Shown piece after piece: positions 4,429 through 30,900 of a stretch of 64,000 nucleotides of DNA. The translations under genes were made by a program, and so were the position numbers. Below the pieces are notes generated by a model. It ran no database searches. It was not told the DNA's origin and saw nothing but the letters and a program-made list of their open reading frames with translations. Within the stretch, counting starts at the first letter, position 1. The number at the start of each line of letters is the position of its first letter. This stretch comes from Candidatus Bathyarchaeia archaeon (GTDB lineage Archaea; Thermoproteota; Bathyarchaeia; 40CM-2-53-6): contig DASYWW010000062.1 in the NCBI GenBank assembly GCA_035935655.1, positions 62,001-126,000 on the forward strand, given 5' to 3'.

Positions 4429-5331
4429 TAGATGCTTCCCGATTTCTTCATCGAGCCAACGTCGCACCACCGTGTTGCCTCTCATCATGTCCATCTTCAC
4501 CTTCTCGACGCCGTCAAGCTCCTGGATCCAATTGTGAATGTTTTCCGCTTCGGAAATGTTCAGGCAGAGCATTGCATATATCGAAAATCCTTTAGCGTCA
4601 GTAAACGAGAACACGATCCTATCCGTCTTGGCACGCACAAGTCTGTCGACTTCCACTTTCTTCTTCGAATCGGGGCAGAAAACTAGAAAATCAGAGGCAA
4701 CGCCTGGGTACTTGTCATAGTCAAGCATCGGCAACAGATAGAAAGCCATCCCCTTCGTCAGGCCCGTTAGTCGCCTCTTCACTGTCCGGGTCGAGACCCC
4801 GACCTCTGCTGCTATTTCGGAAGGGCTTCTTCGGGGATCTTTCCTCAATGCCCTGATAATCTCCCAATCTGTCGCTTTGAGGTCCAGACTGGCCGGGGGA
4901 AAACCGCCCTTCCAAACAATCGCCTGATTGGTTTGACATATCGAATTGAATTCTCGAATTTTCCCCGCTAGATCTTGCTCGTCCTTGTGGTAGAATATTA
5001 CTCGCAGACCATTGCCGTGGAAATTGATCATGATCACGACGCCCTCCAACTGTTCAATCTGAGAAATCACCGAGGTCTTCCTGTCTTCCTTGTCTACGGT
5101 CAATTGCGCTCCCGCGGACTCGAGGCCTATTACGTGGGGGTTCAGCACAACCTGCCAGCCTTTGAGGAATCCGGATTCCCGGGCCCGGTTGATTCTCCTC
5201 CTAACAGTCTCCTCGTCAACTCCAATCCTTGCAGCAATGCTGCGGTAGGACTCTCGAATGTCCCATCGAAACGAACTGGGACTAGCCAATTCTTTCATTA
5301 TGCGAATGTCCAGGTCGACCGGGCGCTGCAA
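4405..5331 (-). CDS. Lrp/AsnC-family transcriptional regulator with two DNA-binding domains
   Basis: 308 residues, about twice the length of a simple Lrp protein. It has two winged-helix segments: one in the first 60 residues (DEETVRRRINRARESGFL) and one near 152-190 (SPSEIAAEVGVSTRTVKRRL). Each is followed by a region that could form a ligand-binding sensor. Tandem Lrp-like proteins of this kind are common in mesophilic archaea. It is divergent from the cupredoxin gene with 118 bases between them, so it may control that promoter. The 3' end lies inside the duplicated segment, which links it historically to the M20 peptidase. Confidence 0.85.
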   Translation of the reverse strand: MQRPVDLDIRIMKELASPSSFRWDIRESYRSIAARIGVDEETVRRRINRARESGFLKGWQVVLNPHVIGLESAGAQLTVDKEDRKTSVISQIEQLEGVVIMINFHGNGLRVIFYHKDEQDLAGKIREFNSICQTNQAIVWKGGFPPASLDLKATDWEIIRALRKDPRRSPSEIAAEVGVSTRTVKRRLTGLTKGMAFYLLPMLDYDKYPGVASDFLVFCPDSKKKVEVDRLVRAKTDRIVFSFTDAKGFSIYAMLCLNISEAENIHNWIQELDGVEKVKMDMMRGNTVVRRWLDEEIGKHLPKEQLTP

Positions 5332-5449
5332 GTTTGCAGAACTCGGCCTATGCTCACCTTCTAAAAAGTGTCCGAAAAACGGCCCGGACTTAGGCGTTCA
5401 GCTATGAATCGCTCTGAGCCTGTACTATCCTACAAAGAGAATCAGAACG

Positions 5450-5965
5450 ATGAACCATCTTCAACTATCTTCCAACGTTCAAGACTCTACAAAACCCTCG
5501 TCCCGGAGTCGCAAGAAGCTCTGGATAATAATCGGAGCACTTGCTGTCGTCTTGATTGTAGTCGCAAGTGTAGTCTACGTGGCAAACAGGGCCGGCGCGG
5601 CTCCTCTGCCACCAAACGGTCCCAATGTTACAGTATGGGATACGGGCTTCTGTTCCAACAGCGGAAATTGTGGCTATAGCCCCACAATCAAGAACGTAAC
5701 CTCAGGAATCTCTTTGACATGGACGAACACCGGGAACCAGGCGCATACAGTCACAGAATGTATCAGCACAGATTCTAGCGTCGCGTGTCCTAGTGGTGCG
5801 GGAGCGAACAGTTCTGGATCACGTGGTTTTGACTCGAACACTCAAACTTCATCAGGGTTCGCGAAAAACCAGCAGTACCAGTATGCGATCAACTTGAGCC
5901 CAGGCGCCTACTACTATTATTGCACGCTACATGCTTGGATGCATGGAACCATAGTGGTCTCCTAG
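5450..5965 (+). CDS. Membrane-anchored cupredoxin (plastocyanin-like)
   Basis: Blue-copper electron carrier exposed outside the cell. An N-terminal membrane anchor (about residues 24-50) precedes a single cupredoxin domain. The type I copper ligands are visible: a histidine in QAHTV near residue 103, then YYYCTLHAWMHG at the C-terminus, giving Cys, His and Met. Two extra cysteines (GFCSNSGNCGY) may form a disulfide, and another pair lies between the ligand regions. Proteins of this type are abundant in Thaumarchaeota and usually shuttle electrons in copper-based respiration. Its own partner is not in the window. Confidence 0.9.
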   Translation: MNHLQLSSNVQDSTKPSSRSRKKLWIIIGALAVVLIVVASVVYVANRAGAAPLPPNGPNVTVWDTGFCSNSGNCGYSPTIKNVTSGISLTWTNTGNQAHTVTECISTDSSVACPSGAGANSSGSRGFDSNTQTSSGFAKNQQYQYAINLSPGAYYYYCTLHAWMHGTIVVS

Positions 5966-25470: not shown

Positions 25471-26397
25471 TCACGCGGTTCTAATCATTTCTCTGGGAAC
25501 AATTCTGACTGCTTCTGGGTGAGGGTTCTCTGGGAACAGTTCGGGATGGATTATGTGAGCTAGGATCTCAAGTCCGGCCACCACTCTCGGGCCTGACCTG
25601 CTGAAATATGCGGACGCGTTGACCGCATAGATTCTCGAAGATTCGAACGCTGGAATCTTCTCCCATGATAGGTACGATCCAAGTACATGGGCTTCTTCCA
25701 TGACTTGGTTAGCATCGAACCCGCATGGAGAGAGCACGATAATCTCAGGCTGGTACTCGACAATCTTTTCCCATCCTATTCTGTGGGAAGGTTCGCCGAG
25801 ACGGCCAAGTCCGTCGATTCCTCCAGCGTAGTCGATCATCTGAGGAATCCAGTGTCCACCAGTCCAAGGAGGTTGGAGCCATTCCATGAAGAAGACCCGC
25901 GGCCGATTTCGCACCGTGCGCGTTTTCTCCTTAACTGTGTTTATTCTCTGCAGCATTTGTGAGGCCAATTTTCCGGCCTCTCCTATCTTCCCAGTCATCC
26001 TGCCAACCAGCAGGATGTTGTCGACGATCTCTTCCAGATTAGTAGGCTCCAGCGAGACGATCTTCGTGTCCGCATCCAAGACTCGGGCCGCTTCCTTGAC
26101 CTTCGTGTAGGAAATGGCGCAAACGTGGCAGAGTTCCTGCGTCAGAATGAGATCCGGCTTCAATTTCTGGAGAAGCTCCTCGTTAATCTCGTAAATGTCG
26201 CCTCCACGTTTTTCGACTTCCCGGTCAACCTCAAGACTACGATGGATCTTCTGATGAATCGCAGACTTCGTCAAGATACGTCGCTTAGACGCTTCAGGAG
26301 GATAATCACACTCGTGGGACACAGCGACAACTTGGTCCCCGAGCCCTAAGGCAAATGCGATCTCCGTGGCACTGGGGAGTAGCGAACAGATTCTCAT
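25471..26397 (-). CDS. BtuF-like periplasmic-binding-fold protein (putative cobalamin binding)
   Basis: COG0614-type protein: RICSLLPSATEIAFALGLGDQVVAVSHECDYPPEA at the N-terminus (the conserved PSATE and cysteine-aspartate patterns), then a linking helix and a second lobe with FFMEWLQPPWTGGHWIPQMIDYAGG. Archaeal proteins annotated as cobalamin-binding share these motifs. There is no signal peptide, so it may act in the cytoplasm, or be exported by another route. It shares a 73-base promoter region with the divergent ECF S-component. One AT element (26431-26438) could serve both directions. Confidence 0.82.
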   Translation of the reverse strand: MRICSLLPSATEIAFALGLGDQVVAVSHECDYPPEASKRRILTKSAIHQKIHRSLEVDREVEKRGGDIYEINEELLQKLKPDLILTQELCHVCAISYTKVKEAARVLDADTKIVSLEPTNLEEIVDNILLVGRMTGKIGEAGKLASQMLQRINTVKEKTRTVRNRPRVFFMEWLQPPWTGGHWIPQMIDYAGGIDGLGRLGEPSHRIGWEKIVEYQPEIIVLSPCGFDANQVMEEAHVLGSYLSWEKIPAFESSRIYAVNASAYFSRSGPRVVAGLEILAHIIHPELFPENPHPEAVRIVPREMIRTA

Positions 26398-26430
26398 TGC
26401 ATGCCTTGCTCTTGTTTGTTTAGCGAAAGG

Positions 26431-26459
26431 ATATTTAACCGGCGGGTAACTTTGCCCGC
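26431..26459. promoter_or_regulatory. Shared TATA element plus inverted-repeat operator
   Basis: ATATTTAA (26431-26438) is near-symmetrical, so it can act as the TATA box for both divergent genes. Right after it lies GCGGG-TAACTTTG-CCCGC (26442-26459), ending near the expected start of transcription of the S-component gene. The same 18 bases recur at 29760-29777 before the toroid gene. The position suggests a repressor site; a short leader hairpin is the alternative. Confidence 0.7.
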
Positions 26460-26470
26460 TTCATCAGATA

Positions 26471-27076
26471 ATGACCGTCACGACAGTCACCACGAACGGC
26501 GCATCTGTGTTCGACAGACCCTCGACTAAGGTTTTGGTCGTAGCGGTCTTCACGTCTCTTTCGCTCGCAACAGACTATGCAATGAGTGGTTTTCAAAACA
26601 TCAAGATGATGGACACTCTTGTTTTCCTCTCAGCGTTTCTTTTTGGCTTTCGCCCGGGAATAGGGGTTGCATTATTGACTCGCTTTGTCTTCGGGTTGGT
26701 CAATCCCATTGGTCCGGCTGATCCCATTACTCTCTTGTTTATCATGACTGGAGAGTGTTTTTTTGCAATCGCTGGAGCCATGCTGCGAAGAACCGTCGCA
26801 GTTTCAAGTTTTCCGAGAGGAAGTCGGGACTATGGGCGGTTAAGTCTCGTATTGTCTTCGGTTGGGCTATTGGCGACCTTTGCTTTCGATATTCTCACAA
26901 ATTTTGGGAGTTGGCTGTTCGAAACGAACTCTCTGTATCAAGCTCTTCTTATTGGAAACATTGTTGGAGCGCCTTTTTCAATCGCACACGAGGCTAGCAA
27001 CGTTGTTTTCTTCGCAACGATTGCCCCTGCTGTAGTCGTTGCAGCGACACGACTAGGCCTTCGAACGCCGCAATGA
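26471..27076 (+). CDS. ECF transporter S-component-like membrane protein
   Basis: 201 residues with about six helices. The pattern of a short N-terminus, a helix with ATDYAM, the loop FQNIKMMDTLVFLSAFLFGFRPGIG and a later helix with FDILTNFGSWLF is typical of ECF vitamin-uptake S-components. Substrate specificity is inferred only: the divergent BtuF-like gene and the downstream DUF4430 gene point to cobalamin or a related corrinoid. The energising EcfA and EcfT genes are not in the window. ATG lies about ten bases after the predicted transcription start. Confidence 0.75.
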   Translation: MTVTTVTTNGASVFDRPSTKVLVVAVFTSLSLATDYAMSGFQNIKMMDTLVFLSAFLFGFRPGIGVALLTRFVFGLVNPIGPADPITLLFIMTGECFFAIAGAMLRRTVAVSSFPRGSRDYGRLSLVLSSVGLLATFAFDILTNFGSWLFETNSLYQALLIGNIVGAPFSIAHEASNVVFFATIAPAVVVAATRLGLRTPQ

Positions 27077-27087
27077 TGTGAGGTGGA

Positions 27088-27609
27088 TTGGGACTCAACA
27101 TTCTCGGCGAACGCAAAGTGTTCTTCGCTGTCCTGTTGCTAGTCGGGGCAGGTATCGCTGCTTTCCAGGCAGGCGCCTACTATTACTATCAGCGATCTAG
27201 CGCTTGTCCAAGTCCCTGTAGGGGGTCCATGGTATCAGTCGAGACTCTGATAAATTATGGCAACACGACAATTCAGTGGATCAACAAGACGGATGTACCT
27301 TCGGATTGGAATTTCTATCAGCTGACGAATTCCATCACGAGACTTGAGGCCACATATTATGGTCCTCCCACATCTGAGCACTTGATCACAGGGTTAAACG
27401 GAGTCCAGAGTAACCAGTACTACTTCTGGAGTCTGTGGGGGGTATGCGAGAAGTCCAAGGCATGGGTGGCCACCAGCGTTGGTGCTGACGCAATTCACTT
27501 TACACGATATCATACACTTGCTTGGTACTATCAGGCGTCAAACCCGCAAGACTCGTCCTCTTGGAACCCGCCAGTCCTAGGAGCGGCGAAGGTAACAATG
27601 TGCAGTTGA
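27088..27609 (+). CDS. Secreted/anchored DUF4430-like protein
   Basis: Begins with one N-terminal membrane helix (about 9-30) and continues outside the cell. The exported part has SVETLINYGNTTIQWINKT, a middle SEHLITGLNGVQ, then a NQYYFWSLWGVC segment and a final AIHFTRYHTLAWYYQ. This order (ligand-side turn, tryptophan-rich strand, GAD-type loop, final W-x-Y strand) is that of DUF4430, the domain that forms the C-terminal beta half of animal intrinsic factor and transcobalamin. The start is TTG 11 bases after the S-component stop, with GAGGTG just before it, so the two form an operon. Confidence 0.7.
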   Translation: MGLNILGERKVFFAVLLLVGAGIAAFQAGAYYYYQRSSACPSPCRGSMVSVETLINYGNTTIQWINKTDVPSDWNFYQLTNSITRLEATYYGPPTSEHLITGLNGVQSNQYYFWSLWGVCEKSKAWVATSVGADAIHFTRYHTLAWYYQASNPQDSSSWNPPVLGAAKVTMCS

Positions 27610-27612
27610 GAC

Positions 27613-29238
27613 TCAGGCCTTCCCATTGGCTCTATCCTGCCGGATTCTGTCGCTCGCTCTTTGGCTGGGTGTGCCGTAGCCACCACCTCCCGGTGTTGTC
27701 ACGTTTAGAATGTCTCCAATGTTTGCGGAAAGCGAGGTCTTGGAAGACAGAGTTGTGATCTTCTCACCTCGAGCAATGCCATACTTCCCCGGCGCTCCAG
27801 ATTTCCCTTCCATGAGTCCCCAGGGTCCATGCCGTTGTCGTTCACCCATCAAGGAGATAGTTGATCCCTGAGCTAGGATCTCTGTTTCTCTTCTAATCCC
27901 CAATCCTCCTCGAAATCTTCCTCGTCCACCGGACCCTCGCACCAGTTCGTATCTTTTGACTCTGAGAGGGTAAGCAGATTCCAACGCCTCAACAGGTGTG
28001 TTCAACGTATTCGTCATGTGACTATGAATTCCGTCGATACCGTCCTTGTTGTATCGTGCGCCGAACCCGCCAGCGATGGTCTCGTAATAGGTGAAATATT
28101 TCCCGGTCCGGGGGTCCACTCCTCCAATCGTTACATTGTTCATTGTTCCTTGGCAAGCAGCGCAGACGCTCTCCGGAATAATATTGGAGAAGGCCTTAAG
28201 GGTGACATCAACGACTCGTGTCGAAGTTTCCACATTTCCTCCGGCGACCGGTGCTGGTGGCTTCGCGTTGACGATTGTTCCGGATGGAGCTTTGGCCTGA
28301 ATGGGTTTGAAGCATCCAGCGTTTGCTGGAATCGAGGGATCCGTCACGCATCTTACCACGTAGTAGACTGCTGAGAGGGTGACGCTGTAGACTGCGTTCA
28401 CGGGTCCCTGAACCTGCTTTGCACTGCCAGAGAAGTCAAAGGCTATGGAATCTTGACCGACTGTGACTTTGACCTTGATCGGGATGTCGGTTGTGCCTAG
28501 GCCATCGTCATCAAGATAGTCAATGGCTGTGGACGACTTTCTAGGTAGCTCGCGAATCCTCTTGATCATCAGCTCTTCCGAGTAGTCGATCAATTGTTTC
28601 ATTCCTGACTCAACGGTGGATACGTTCGATTTTTTCAGCAGCTCGGTTAGACGTTTCGCAGCGACAAGGTTCGCGGCTCGTTGGGCTCTAAGATCTCCCA
28701 GCCTTTCTTCAGGAGTTCGAACATTGGTCAGTACGAAGTCGAGTAGTTGCCGGTTCGGCTTGCCCTCGGCCCAGAGTTTGATGGGAGGGATTCTGATTCC
28801 TTCTTGGTTGACATCTCTCGAAAGAGCCGACATGCTTCCAGGCGCAAGTCCTCCAACATCAGAGTGATGAGCGCGATTAGCAGCAAACCCGATCAGTCGT
28901 TCTTTGAGGAAGATCGGTGAGACCATGGTAATGTCGGGAAGATGGGTCCCACCGCGGTATGGATCATTGAGAATGATGTCGTCTCCTTCCGAAAAATCAT
29001 CTTCAAACTCTTTGAGAACAGCCTGGACAGAGTATGGCATCGCGCCAAGATGGACGGGTATGTGCTCAGCTTGAGCTACCAGTTGTCCTGACGCATCGAA
29101 TAGCGAGCAGGAGAAATCTCTCCTCTCCTTGATGTTCGGAGAGAAGCTCGATTTACGAAGAACGACTCCCATCTCCTCTGCAATCGAGATTAGCGAGTTC
29201 TTGAGGATCTCAAACGAAACCGGGTCAGGCAATTCCAA
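27613..29238 (-). CDS. hyuB: Hydantoinase B/oxoprolinase family protein
   Basis: Beta subunit of an ATP-dependent hydantoinase, oxoprolinase or acetophenone-carboxylase type enzyme. Family patterns are GEHIPVHLGAMP-like (AEHIPVHLGAMPYS near residue 58), DIILNDPYRGGTHLPDITMVSPIF and a C-terminal GGRGRFRGGLGIRRE plus TPGGGGYG. 541 residues is normal. Its usual partner, hydantoinase A, is on the same strand but 2.5 kb away at 31738-33816. The predicted start is TTG. Confidence 0.92.
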   Translation of the reverse strand: MELPDPVSFEILKNSLISIAEEMGVVLRKSSFSPNIKERRDFSCSLFDASGQLVAQAEHIPVHLGAMPYSVQAVLKEFEDDFSEGDDIILNDPYRGGTHLPDITMVSPIFLKERLIGFAANRAHHSDVGGLAPGSMSALSRDVNQEGIRIPPIKLWAEGKPNRQLLDFVLTNVRTPEERLGDLRAQRAANLVAAKRLTELLKKSNVSTVESGMKQLIDYSEELMIKRIRELPRKSSTAIDYLDDDGLGTTDIPIKVKVTVGQDSIAFDFSGSAKQVQGPVNAVYSVTLSAVYYVVRCVTDPSIPANAGCFKPIQAKAPSGTIVNAKPPAPVAGGNVETSTRVVDVTLKAFSNIIPESVCAACQGTMNNVTIGGVDPRTGKYFTYYETIAGGFGARYNKDGIDGIHSHMTNTLNTPVEALESAYPLRVKRYELVRGSGGRGRFRGGLGIRRETEILAQGSTISLMGERQRHGPWGLMEGKSGAPGKYGIARGEKITTLSSKTSLSANIGDILNVTTPGGGGYGTPSQRASDRIRQDRANGKA

Positions 29239-29258
29239 TCTTTCTCTACGCTAAATCC

Positions 29259-29698
29259 TCACGCGATGTCACTTGGATCTCCATCGCCTTTGATATGCCC
29301 GGCGTATTTTGTCAGCTGTTCGGTCAAGTTCCTCTCGGGAGGGTCTGGAGCCATGGTCCGCTGGTATTCGAAAATCGTCTCCGTGGAACTTGGAATTACG
29401 TGCATGTGGAGGTGAATCTCCTTTGCGGTTCTCCATCTGCTAGGAAAAGATTGATTCCATCACATCTCAAGCCCGACTTGCGGACGGCATCAGCTACACG
29501 CGTTGTGATCTTGAAGAGATACATGCCCATTTTCTCCTCCATACTTGCTAGAGCTGGAAAGTGTTTCTTCGTAATGACCAGAACATGGCCCAGGTCTGCT
29601 GGAGCTATCGTCATCAACGCCATGATCTTCTTGTCCTCATACACGAGACTAGCAGGTGCTTTGCCGCTCACTATTTTGCAGAATACGCAGTTCTTCAT
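29259..29698 (-). pseudogene. HIT-family nucleotide hydrolase, interrupted by a one-base loss
   Basis: The N-terminal part (29698 to about 29430) is a normal HIT protein: MKNCVFCKIVSGKAPASLVYED with the zinc-linked cysteines, then APADLGHVLVITKKHFP. The first frame stops at 29396. In the neighbouring frame the sequence continues as KEIHLHMHVIPSS, which is the HxHxH active site, and runs to TGA at 29259-29261. One missing base near 29425-29432 (ADGEP then KEIHLH) explains it. The full protein would be about 146 residues, the usual HIT length. The break is either recent or a sequence error. Confidence 0.82.
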
Positions 29699-29736
29699 GG
29701 GCGGAAGATCCGATTCTTTGCTTTGGCTGCATCGAG

Positions 29737-29779
29737 CTTATATGGCACCTAAGCGTAGAGCGGGTAACTTTGCCCGCTC
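29737..29779 (+). promoter_or_regulatory. TATA element and operator of the toroid gene
   Basis: CTTATATGG (29737-29745) is followed by an inverted repeat with seven-base arms (GAGCGGG at 29758-29764, CCCGCTC at 29773-29779) around TAACTTTG. Its inner 18 bases are identical to the operator at 26442-26459. The predicted transcription start, about 29766, falls inside the repeat. Confidence 0.7.
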
Positions 29780-30900
29780 CAAAATATCCTATCAAAGCCG
29801 CAATCTGGATCGCTCTTCTCGTGACTCTCAGCCTGGTTGCGCCACTTCACTATGCCAGTGCTGCATCCTCTCAAAGTTCCGCTGCAAGATCCGCTCTGAG
29901 CTGGCTGTCGAATAACGAGAGAGCTGACGGGTCTTTCGGGGATTATTCTCAACTCCCGACTCCTGGCGCGGCTTTTGCACTTTGGCTGAATGACTCGCAC
30001 TCGCAGCAGGCTGCGAAGTCTTTCGCCTGGCTTGCTGCTCAGCTTGACGACTCCTCTAGCTTTGCATGGGGAGAAGCTGACATTCCAGGCGCTATGCTTC
30101 ACGTGATTACTGCAAGTTCCAATATTGGTTTGATCCATAATCAGTCGGATTTTTCCAACCTTTTGAGCTATCAACAGTCCAGTGGGGGATTCGCCGGCTA
30201 TTCTCCAGGACCATCATATGTGGCGGTTGCAAGTAGTGTGGATACCGACATGGCATTGTGGGGTTTGGCCAGCACTCCTCACATAACGGGGCAACAGCGG
30301 ACAACTGCGGTCAACTTTCTTTTCTCGCTTCAGAACCGCGACGGTAGTTTCAATCTGACTTCCGCGGTTTCCTCGGATCCTCTTAACGCGTTCGGACCTG
30401 AGCCGATCAGCGTTACTGCATTGACTGTTCTAGCTTTGAAAGAAGCTGGCTATACTGCGAACGATAATCATGTTGCGAAGGCTTTGGATTTCTTAGCCAA
30501 TACTGTTTCTAAGAACTTCACGTCTGCAAGCGATCACAAAGGGCACGTTTATGGTGCTTCATTGTCCGCACTGGCGTTCGATTTGTATGGCAGGAGCGGC
30601 CAAGCTCTGGCGTCAATCTCTTTCGTCTTGTCCCAGCAGAATTCAGATGGCAGTTTTCATGATGTTGTGCGGGGTTCTGCTCAGAAGACTCTTGATACGG
30701 GCTGGGTGACTGTTGCCTTGGAGCAGGTTCAGCCTGGTCCGTTGCTCAGTTCCTTTCTGCCTCCGCTCGTTTTCGTCGGAGTCATCATCCTGGTAGGAGT
30801 CGTAGCGGTTGTCGGGGTTGTCGTCGCCTACATTCTGTTAAGGCGGCGGGCTCTCAAGCGAACCCTGACCTCTGGAGCATCAACCATTTCTATCTTTTAG
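29770..30900 (+). CDS. Secreted alpha/alpha-toroid protein, transcobalamin-like
   Basis: About 376 residues: a signal peptide (to about SASA), a domain of four or more alpha/alpha-hairpin repeats, and a C-terminal membrane helix with a basic tail. The repeats show the SQQNSDGSF-type turns of the squalene-cyclase/prenyltransferase superfamily (ERADGSFG, SSGGFAG, NRDGSFNL, NSDGSFHD), but the catalytic DxDD motif is missing, so it is probably a binder rather than a cyclase. In animals the cobalamin carriers join such a barrel to a DUF4430 domain; here DUF4430 is a separate gene under the same operator. I chose TTG 29770 because the TATA box predicts a leaderless start there; a longer frame back to 29656 lies upstream of the promoter. 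Confidence 0.75.
   Translation: MPAPKYPIKAAIWIALLVTLSLVAPLHYASAASSQSSAARSALSWLSNNERADGSFGDYSQLPTPGAAFALWLNDSHSQQAAKSFAWLAAQLDDSSSFAWGEADIPGAMLHVITASSNIGLIHNQSDFSNLLSYQQSSGGFAGYSPGPSYVAVASSVDTDMALWGLASTPHITGQQRTTAVNFLFSLQNRDGSFNLTSAVSSDPLNAFGPEPISVTALTVLALKEAGYTANDNHVAKALDFLANTVSKNFTSASDHKGHVYGASLSALAFDLYGRSGQALASISFVLSQQNSDGSFHDVVRGSAQKTLDTGWVTVALEQVQPGPLLSSFLPPLVFVGVIILVGVVAVVGVVVAYILLRRRALKRTLTSGASTISIF

Follow-up and report, generated by a model that had tools for sequence, protein, structure and literature searches.

How might a soil archaeon that appears, from its gene content, to be auxotrophic for vitamin B12 take the vitamin up from its surroundings? The question is raised by a locus at positions 25471-30900 of a stretch of 64,000 nucleotides (the window, part of contig C62), which comes from a soil Bathyarchaeia genome of 2.5 Mb and 96% completeness whose named relatives are soil Bathyarchaeota metagenome-assembled genomes. 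A first-pass annotation, made from the letters of the window, had proposed that four genes here form one vitamin capture system, and all four open reading frames were found where it had placed them. They encode a BtuF-like protein (25471-26397), an S-component of an energy-coupling factor (ECF) transporter (26471-27076), a DUF4430 protein (27088-27609) and an alpha/alpha-toroid protein (29770-30900). Judging from the sequences, we consider it likely that a CbrT-type ECF transporter takes up corrinoids here and that a surface protein resembling transcobalamin works with it. The comparisons below cover 21 genomes of the family, with 18 family loci for the gene neighbourhoods, 257 Bathyarchaeia genomes for the class, and 398 genomes of the phylum for the search of a shared DNA element.

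The S-component and the neighbouring DUF4430 protein

The S-component is encoded on the plus strand at 26471-27076. Taken alone, it gives a weak, sub-threshold match to the Pfam family ECF_trnsprt (E 0.0097), while at the family level the assignment is clear, and 26 of the 37 class-wide members match that family. A profile (A6) was built from 37 S-components, picked as DUF4430 neighbours across the class, and run against the PDB sequences. The only significant match is 6fnp_A, with an E value of 1.6e-11 over the full length; RibU follows at E 0.13, and no further S-component is found among the matches listed. The 6fnp_A chain has 182 residues and is labelled 'membrane protein', and from its size we infer that it is CbrT itself. 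In profile comparison, the S-component thus groups with the characterised B12 S-component CbrT, and its placement in a corrinoid rather than another vitamin group, as first annotated, is upheld by this sole significant PDB match of the 37-sequence profile. For ECF-CbrT (PDB 6FNP), the transport of both B12 and cobinamide has been demonstrated (PMC5997447), and the substrate of the archaeal protein is accordingly predicted to be a corrinoid. The narrow profiles A1 and A2 and the profile A7 gave nothing significant against the PDB.

S-components contact EcfT through a small-residue motif of the AxxxA type in their first helix. At this position the S-component of the window has AVFTS and most of its close relatives have AVFTA, and both residues are small in 23 of the 37 class-wide members.

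The next gene on the same strand (27088-27609) encodes a membrane-anchored protein with an N-terminal helix at residues 5-37 and a beta-grasp-like ectodomain. An alignment-based AlphaFold2 model, in which the domain follows the membrane helix, has a mean predicted local distance difference test (pLDDT) score of 81, with most of the ectodomain at about 90. When this model was compared with the whole PDB, the best 19 fold matches were all transcobalamin, intrinsic factor, haptocorrin or the R. gnavus protein 3u7z, among them the isolated human transcobalamin beta domain with (5np4) and without cyanocobalamin. The E values go down to 5e-5 and the template modelling (TM) scores are 0.63-0.73 against isolated domains, and unrelated folds appear only from an E value of about 0.01. 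Among the relatives, the orthologue in genome G010 passes the PF14478 (DUF4430) cut-off (24.4 vs 23.8); of the 33 family members, 24 give a PF14478 match at E<0.01. The transcobalamin beta-domain (DUF4430) fold proposed for this protein is thereby confirmed at the level of the predicted structure. As to 3u7z, this is a Ruminococcus protein of unassigned function that is described as a bacterial homologue of transcobalamin-type proteins.

The two genes stand side by side in the genomes compared. Within the family, the S-component and the DUF4430 protein are each present in 19/21 genomes, and at 18/18 loci the genes are adjacent, with constant order and strand. They are also neighbours at essentially every class-wide Bathyarchaeia locus inspected, the DUF4430 family being present in 116 of the 257 genomes of the class. 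Some members of the family are larger. DUF4430 proteins of 266-278 residues (L217:2859-3662, L218:2447-3262, L219, L220, L221 and L231), always beside an S-component, have an extra, possibly coiled-coil stretch between the membrane helix and the DUF4430 domain, which may be stalk-like. Another Bathyarchaeia genome, one that has CbiC, carries a frame of 2654 residues with several DUF4430 matches adjoining EcfT/EcfA-like genes (L174:8070-16034). It should be mentioned that one contig labelled Verrucomicrobia (L114, QHOM01000314.1) carries an archaeal S/DUF4430 locus; this is probably a binning error, and we treated the contig as mis-binned archaeal.

For transport, an S-component needs the rest of the ECF complex, and the statement that EcfA and EcfT lie outside the window proved right: the source genome has a stand-alone EcfA1-EcfA2-EcfT set on another contig, C12 (L104 8216-10678). 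There is a second ECF module on contig C57 (L105:2668-5803), with an S-like membrane protein of its own that has no Pfam match.

A need for imported B12 is indicated by what the genome has and lacks. CbiC, used as the marker of de novo corrin synthesis, was found in 0/21 family genomes, the source genome included, in a search that detected its positive controls. At the same time, the source genome encodes B12-dependent proteins, namely the B12 subunit of methylmalonyl-CoA mutase (E 1.9e-46), a corrinoid-protein homologue and a B12-binding radical-SAM protein. The check for missing cobalamin synthesis that had been called for thus gave the expected result with this marker. Of the 257 Bathyarchaeia genomes, 116 have the DUF4430 family, 49 have CbiC and 3 have both, where 22 would be expected (p 6e-11). 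This anticorrelation is supportive, not proof. In the source genome, a gene for a NicO-type nickel/cobalt transporter directly adjoins that of the methylmalonyl-CoA mutase B12 subunit (L214:5847-7136 and 5050-5496).

The toroid, the shared element and the divergent neighbour

The surface toroid protein is encoded at 29770-30900 on the plus strand. It has an N-terminal hydrophobic, signal-like segment and a C-terminal membrane helix as anchor, and the predicted model shows a helical toroid followed by this helix. The Pfam matches are TED_complement (E 1.5e-10) and SQHop (E 8.6e-6), and only toroid families of the TED, cyclase and prenyltransferase kind are matched; the matches to NCBIfam are far below the curated cut-offs. 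None of the 14 aligned orthologues has a DxDD motif in its toroid domain, and the sole DxDD among them (residue 367 in L044) lies in a PKD-like extension, a stretch that several of the aligned relatives have ahead of the anchor. The absence of a cyclase motif, claimed at the outset, is thus borne out as far as DxDD alone can tell, and a terpene cyclase was rejected as an assignment because the toroid domain lacks this motif. It was also correct that the toroid and the DUF4430 protein are separate and membrane-tethered, since they are two genes, each with a predicted membrane segment. Here the toroid and the beta domain are not in one polypeptide, unlike in the transcobalamin/intrinsic factor family.

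The toroid is present in 17/21 family genomes and lies beside the S/DUF4430 pair, or one HyuB-like gene further, at 14/18 loci. The loci with no toroid nearby mostly stop at a contig edge, the exception being L036 (an 8-kb contig). The S-component, DUF4430 and toroid genes follow one another directly, in this order, in G004, G005, G009, G010 and G014; in G019 the order is toroid-S-DUF4430. The gene that intervenes in the window's clade, and does not in several relatives, encodes a HyuB-type hydantoinase/oxoprolinase (27613-29238, minus strand). Elsewhere in Bathyarchaeia the two domains are found fused, which is also the arrangement of transcobalamin: toroid-DUF4430 fusions lie beside S/DUF4430 pairs at L163:5821-7023 and, more weakly, at L162, and one (L167:4951-7179) lies beside EcfT and EcfA genes. 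From the models and these arrangements, the toroid would be an accessory tied to the S/DUF4430 system, for which a clamp role is plausible.

The S-component operon and the toroid gene are also connected by an operator-like element, GCGGGTAACTTTGCCCGC. It occurs at 26442-26459 (plus strand), between the S operon and the BtuF-like gene and ahead of the former, and in a second exact copy at 29760-29777 (plus strand) where the toroid gene begins; the TTG start codon of that gene falls inside the element. Only 0.06 matches are expected by chance in the window, and these two are the only copies in the 2.5-Mb genome even when up to 3 mismatches are allowed. The shared operator that the first-pass annotation had noticed is therefore real in the sense that it is exact before both genes and restricted to them. 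The family has 33 copies of the element (16-18 bp), including those of the window, ahead of S and toroid genes. It is important to note that the search pattern itself dictates the 16 inner bases, and the conservation is to be read from the flanks, which are G in 91% and C in 100% of the 33 copies, with the further neighbouring positions varying freely. In the phylum sample, the source genome and three relatives have two copies each, and there is a single further hit, no more than chance would give. A wider regulon was considered and rejected on account of the two genome copies and this lone stray hit.

TATA-like boxes can be read from the sequence upstream of both copies: the nearly palindromic ATATTTAA at 26431-26438 (plus strand), in an arrangement that is the same in relatives, and CTTATAT at 29737-29743 (plus strand) for the toroid gene, conserved in relatives. 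The former may possibly act for the divergent BtuF-like gene as well as for the S operon. The element starts 3 nucleotides past the box at the S promoter and 16 nucleotides past it at the toroid promoter. With the usual archaeal spacing, it would lie between the TATA-like box and the transcription start in the first case and over the start in the second, positions expected of a repressor site. These putative starts would leave the element mostly untranscribed at the S promoter, which favours a DNA site. The element also folds as a hairpin (-10.8 kcal/mol). It is nearly palindromic and its orientation relative to the gene is constant in all copies, something that a symmetric repressor would not need. 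A known RNA such as a riboswitch was rejected, since an Rfam search of the window gave no match; given the hairpin and the fixed orientation, a role as RNA, or a directional one, is still conceivable.

Finally, the gene at 25471-26397 on the minus strand encodes the divergent neighbour, which belongs to Peripla_BP_2 (PF01497, E 8e-23) and has BtuF as its nearest solved relative. It has neither a signal peptide nor a hydrophobic or membrane segment, and reading in frame through the 21 codons upstream gives nothing signal-like. A surface receptor was rejected for want of an export signal, and the protein is probably cytoplasmic. The gene is divergent to the S-component, with the element-containing intergenic region in common, at 10/18 family loci. 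Its membership of the system is uncertain, and some role in corrinoid handling is conceivable.

Weighing of the interpretations

In the uptake system that we favour, the CbrT-like S-component in the membrane would bind the corrinoid and draw its energy from a shared EcfT-EcfA1-EcfA2 module, whose genes lie on another contig. The tethered DUF4430 protein, presumably on the outside of the cell, would capture the corrinoid or pass it to the S-component. The toroid, made under the same element, would probably help in the capture and might close over the ligand in the manner of the transcobalamin toroid. Through the element, the genes would be repressed according to corrinoid status. None of the observations that the first-pass annotation had named as fatal to its proposal, namely an intact active site in the toroid, a 27088-27609 protein foreign to DUF4430 or an S-component grouping with another vitamin family, was made.

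A number of results do weigh against this interpretation or against parts of the first-pass proposal. The S-component of the window alone has no significant relative among solved structures, and with the narrow S-component family profile CbrT is matched with an E value of only 0.21. Similarly, the DUF4430 protein of the window alone has no Pfam match, being too divergent for the PF14478 cut-off. The fold matches of the toroid are terpene cyclases, AprG and the alpha2-macroglobulin TED, with transcobalamin outside the top 50 and also not among the Pfam matches. The suggestion of a transcobalamin-type barrel does not survive this comparison; the predicted toroid resembles the cyclase-type toroids and not the transcobalamin barrel specifically. 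Most of the S/DUF4430 pairs inspected outside the family have no toroid nearby, which means that a clamp is not obligatory. As for the BtuF-like protein, the family assignment and the kinship with BtuF stand, while its part in surface capture falls with the missing export signal and its presence at 10/18 loci only. Corrin synthesis was judged by the single marker CbiC, and by genus the anticorrelation of CbiC with DUF4430 reaches only p 0.09, because most CbiC genomes fall in one genus or a few genera. Lastly, the genome search with up to 3 mismatches found the element ahead of no other gene, B12-dependent ones included, and thus no known B12 regulon is shown.

Different roles can be assigned to the toroid. 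It could form together with the DUF4430 protein the split halves of an intrinsic factor, that is, one surface clamp around the corrinoid that hands it over to the S-component. The common element, the adjacency in the family, the missing cyclase motif, the membrane anchors of both proteins and the fusions beside S/DUF4430 or ECF genes speak for such a clamp, and the cyclase- and TED-like folds and the many pairs with no toroid speak against it; we hold it to be possible but short of probable. A still more specific version, in which two separately encoded tethered halves close around the corrinoid and deliver it to the CbrT-type ECF transporter under a dedicated B12-responsive operator for these promoters only, is doubtful. 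The toroid could also be a co-regulated surface protein that never touches DUF4430 and acts like an adhesin or scavenges corrinoid complexes, with the transporter consisting of the S-component and DUF4430 only. This would agree with the core pair being found with no toroid in many genomes, with the PKD-like extension before the anchor in some relatives, as in adhesive surface proteins, and with the weak specific likeness to the transcobalamin barrel. It is harder to reconcile with the fusions in related archaea and the dedicated shared element, and we give it, too, tentative standing as a possibility.

Two further explanations would remove the corrinoid or the vitamin altogether. The imported ligand could be another one, such as a riboflavin- or folate-like vitamin or heme, the likeness to transcobalamin being then one of fold only. 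Some S-component members do match the ECF-ribofla_trS and FolT models weakly, and a survey of 2007 pointed out that archaea carrying such domains can often synthesise B12, and that their scavenging may serve some other compound (PMC1796856). Against this stand CbrT as the sole significant solved relative, with RibU at E 0.13, the lack of CbiC in the family and its rare co-occurrence in the class, and the B12-dependent proteins, which together make another ligand improbable. The least credible option, and a very improbable one, is that the toroid works as a membrane-tethered terpene cyclase or prenyltransferase with no link to a vitamin. The best Pfam, NCBIfam and PDB matches of the toroid do include squalene-hopene cyclases, but these fall far below the curated NCBIfam cut-offs, the signal-like segment and the anchor imply an outside orientation, and DxDD, the cyclase motif, is missing from the toroid domain of all 14 orthologues.

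Relation to known systems and significance

With ECF-CbrT of Lactobacillus delbrueckii (PDB 6FNP), the corrinoid uptake system proposed here has in common the S-component family and a stand-alone, shared ECF module. It differs in that the archaeal locus is far diverged, the partner is anchored N-terminally in the membrane, a separate toroid stands under the same element, and the corrinoid substrate is a predicted one. The order of the CbrT cluster in L. delbrueckii is nrdJ-cbrS-cbrT-pduO (PMC5997447), while rtpR of L. rhamnosus has a DUF4430 gene next to it (PMC9963975); by analogy, the Lactobacillus CbrT system likely has a DUF4430 partner as well.

The principle is known in bacteria, as a prediction, since 2007, when Burroughs et al. 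defined a transcobalamin-like SLBB clade with toroid fusions and bacterial CbiO/CbiQ operons and proposed B12 scavenging (PMC1796856). The likeness extends to the beta-grasp domain, the predicted surface scavenging, the operons and the toroids. There, however, the toroid is fused to SLBB and the members come from Gram-positives, planctomycetes and euryarchaea, whereas here the toroid and DUF4430 are separate Bathyarchaeia genes tied to a CbrT-type S-component.

The animal carriers intrinsic factor, transcobalamin and haptocorrin share the fold of the beta domain and an alpha/alpha-toroid partner, but they are single, soluble, fused proteins, while the locus has two membrane-tethered proteins, a cyclase-like toroid and a hypothetical clamp. 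The B12-binding lipoproteins of Bacteroides are different proteins of an outer-membrane system, and to our knowledge they are not homologous to the archaeal ones. What the Bacteroides lipoproteins (PMC6143338) have in common with the locus is a surface-tethered B12 binder that feeds a transporter, predicted in the present case.

In the openly licensed literature we found no earlier description of this archaeal system or of a Bathyarchaeia B12 importer. What is new is that a profile links the S-component to CbrT, that S and DUF4430 form a class-wide unit in Bathyarchaeia, that the toroid is encoded apart from DUF4430, and that there is a two-site element.

Bathyarchaeia are an abundant class of archaea, and CbiC is missing from most of the genomes examined; the locus gives the class a candidate B12 importer. 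It connects DUF4430 with transporters of the CbrT type across archaea and provides a prokaryotic counterpart to parts of the animal B12 carriers, and the conserved two-site element offers an entry point to an archaeal B12 regulator. Parts of the human B12 carrier may thus exist as separate pieces in archaea.

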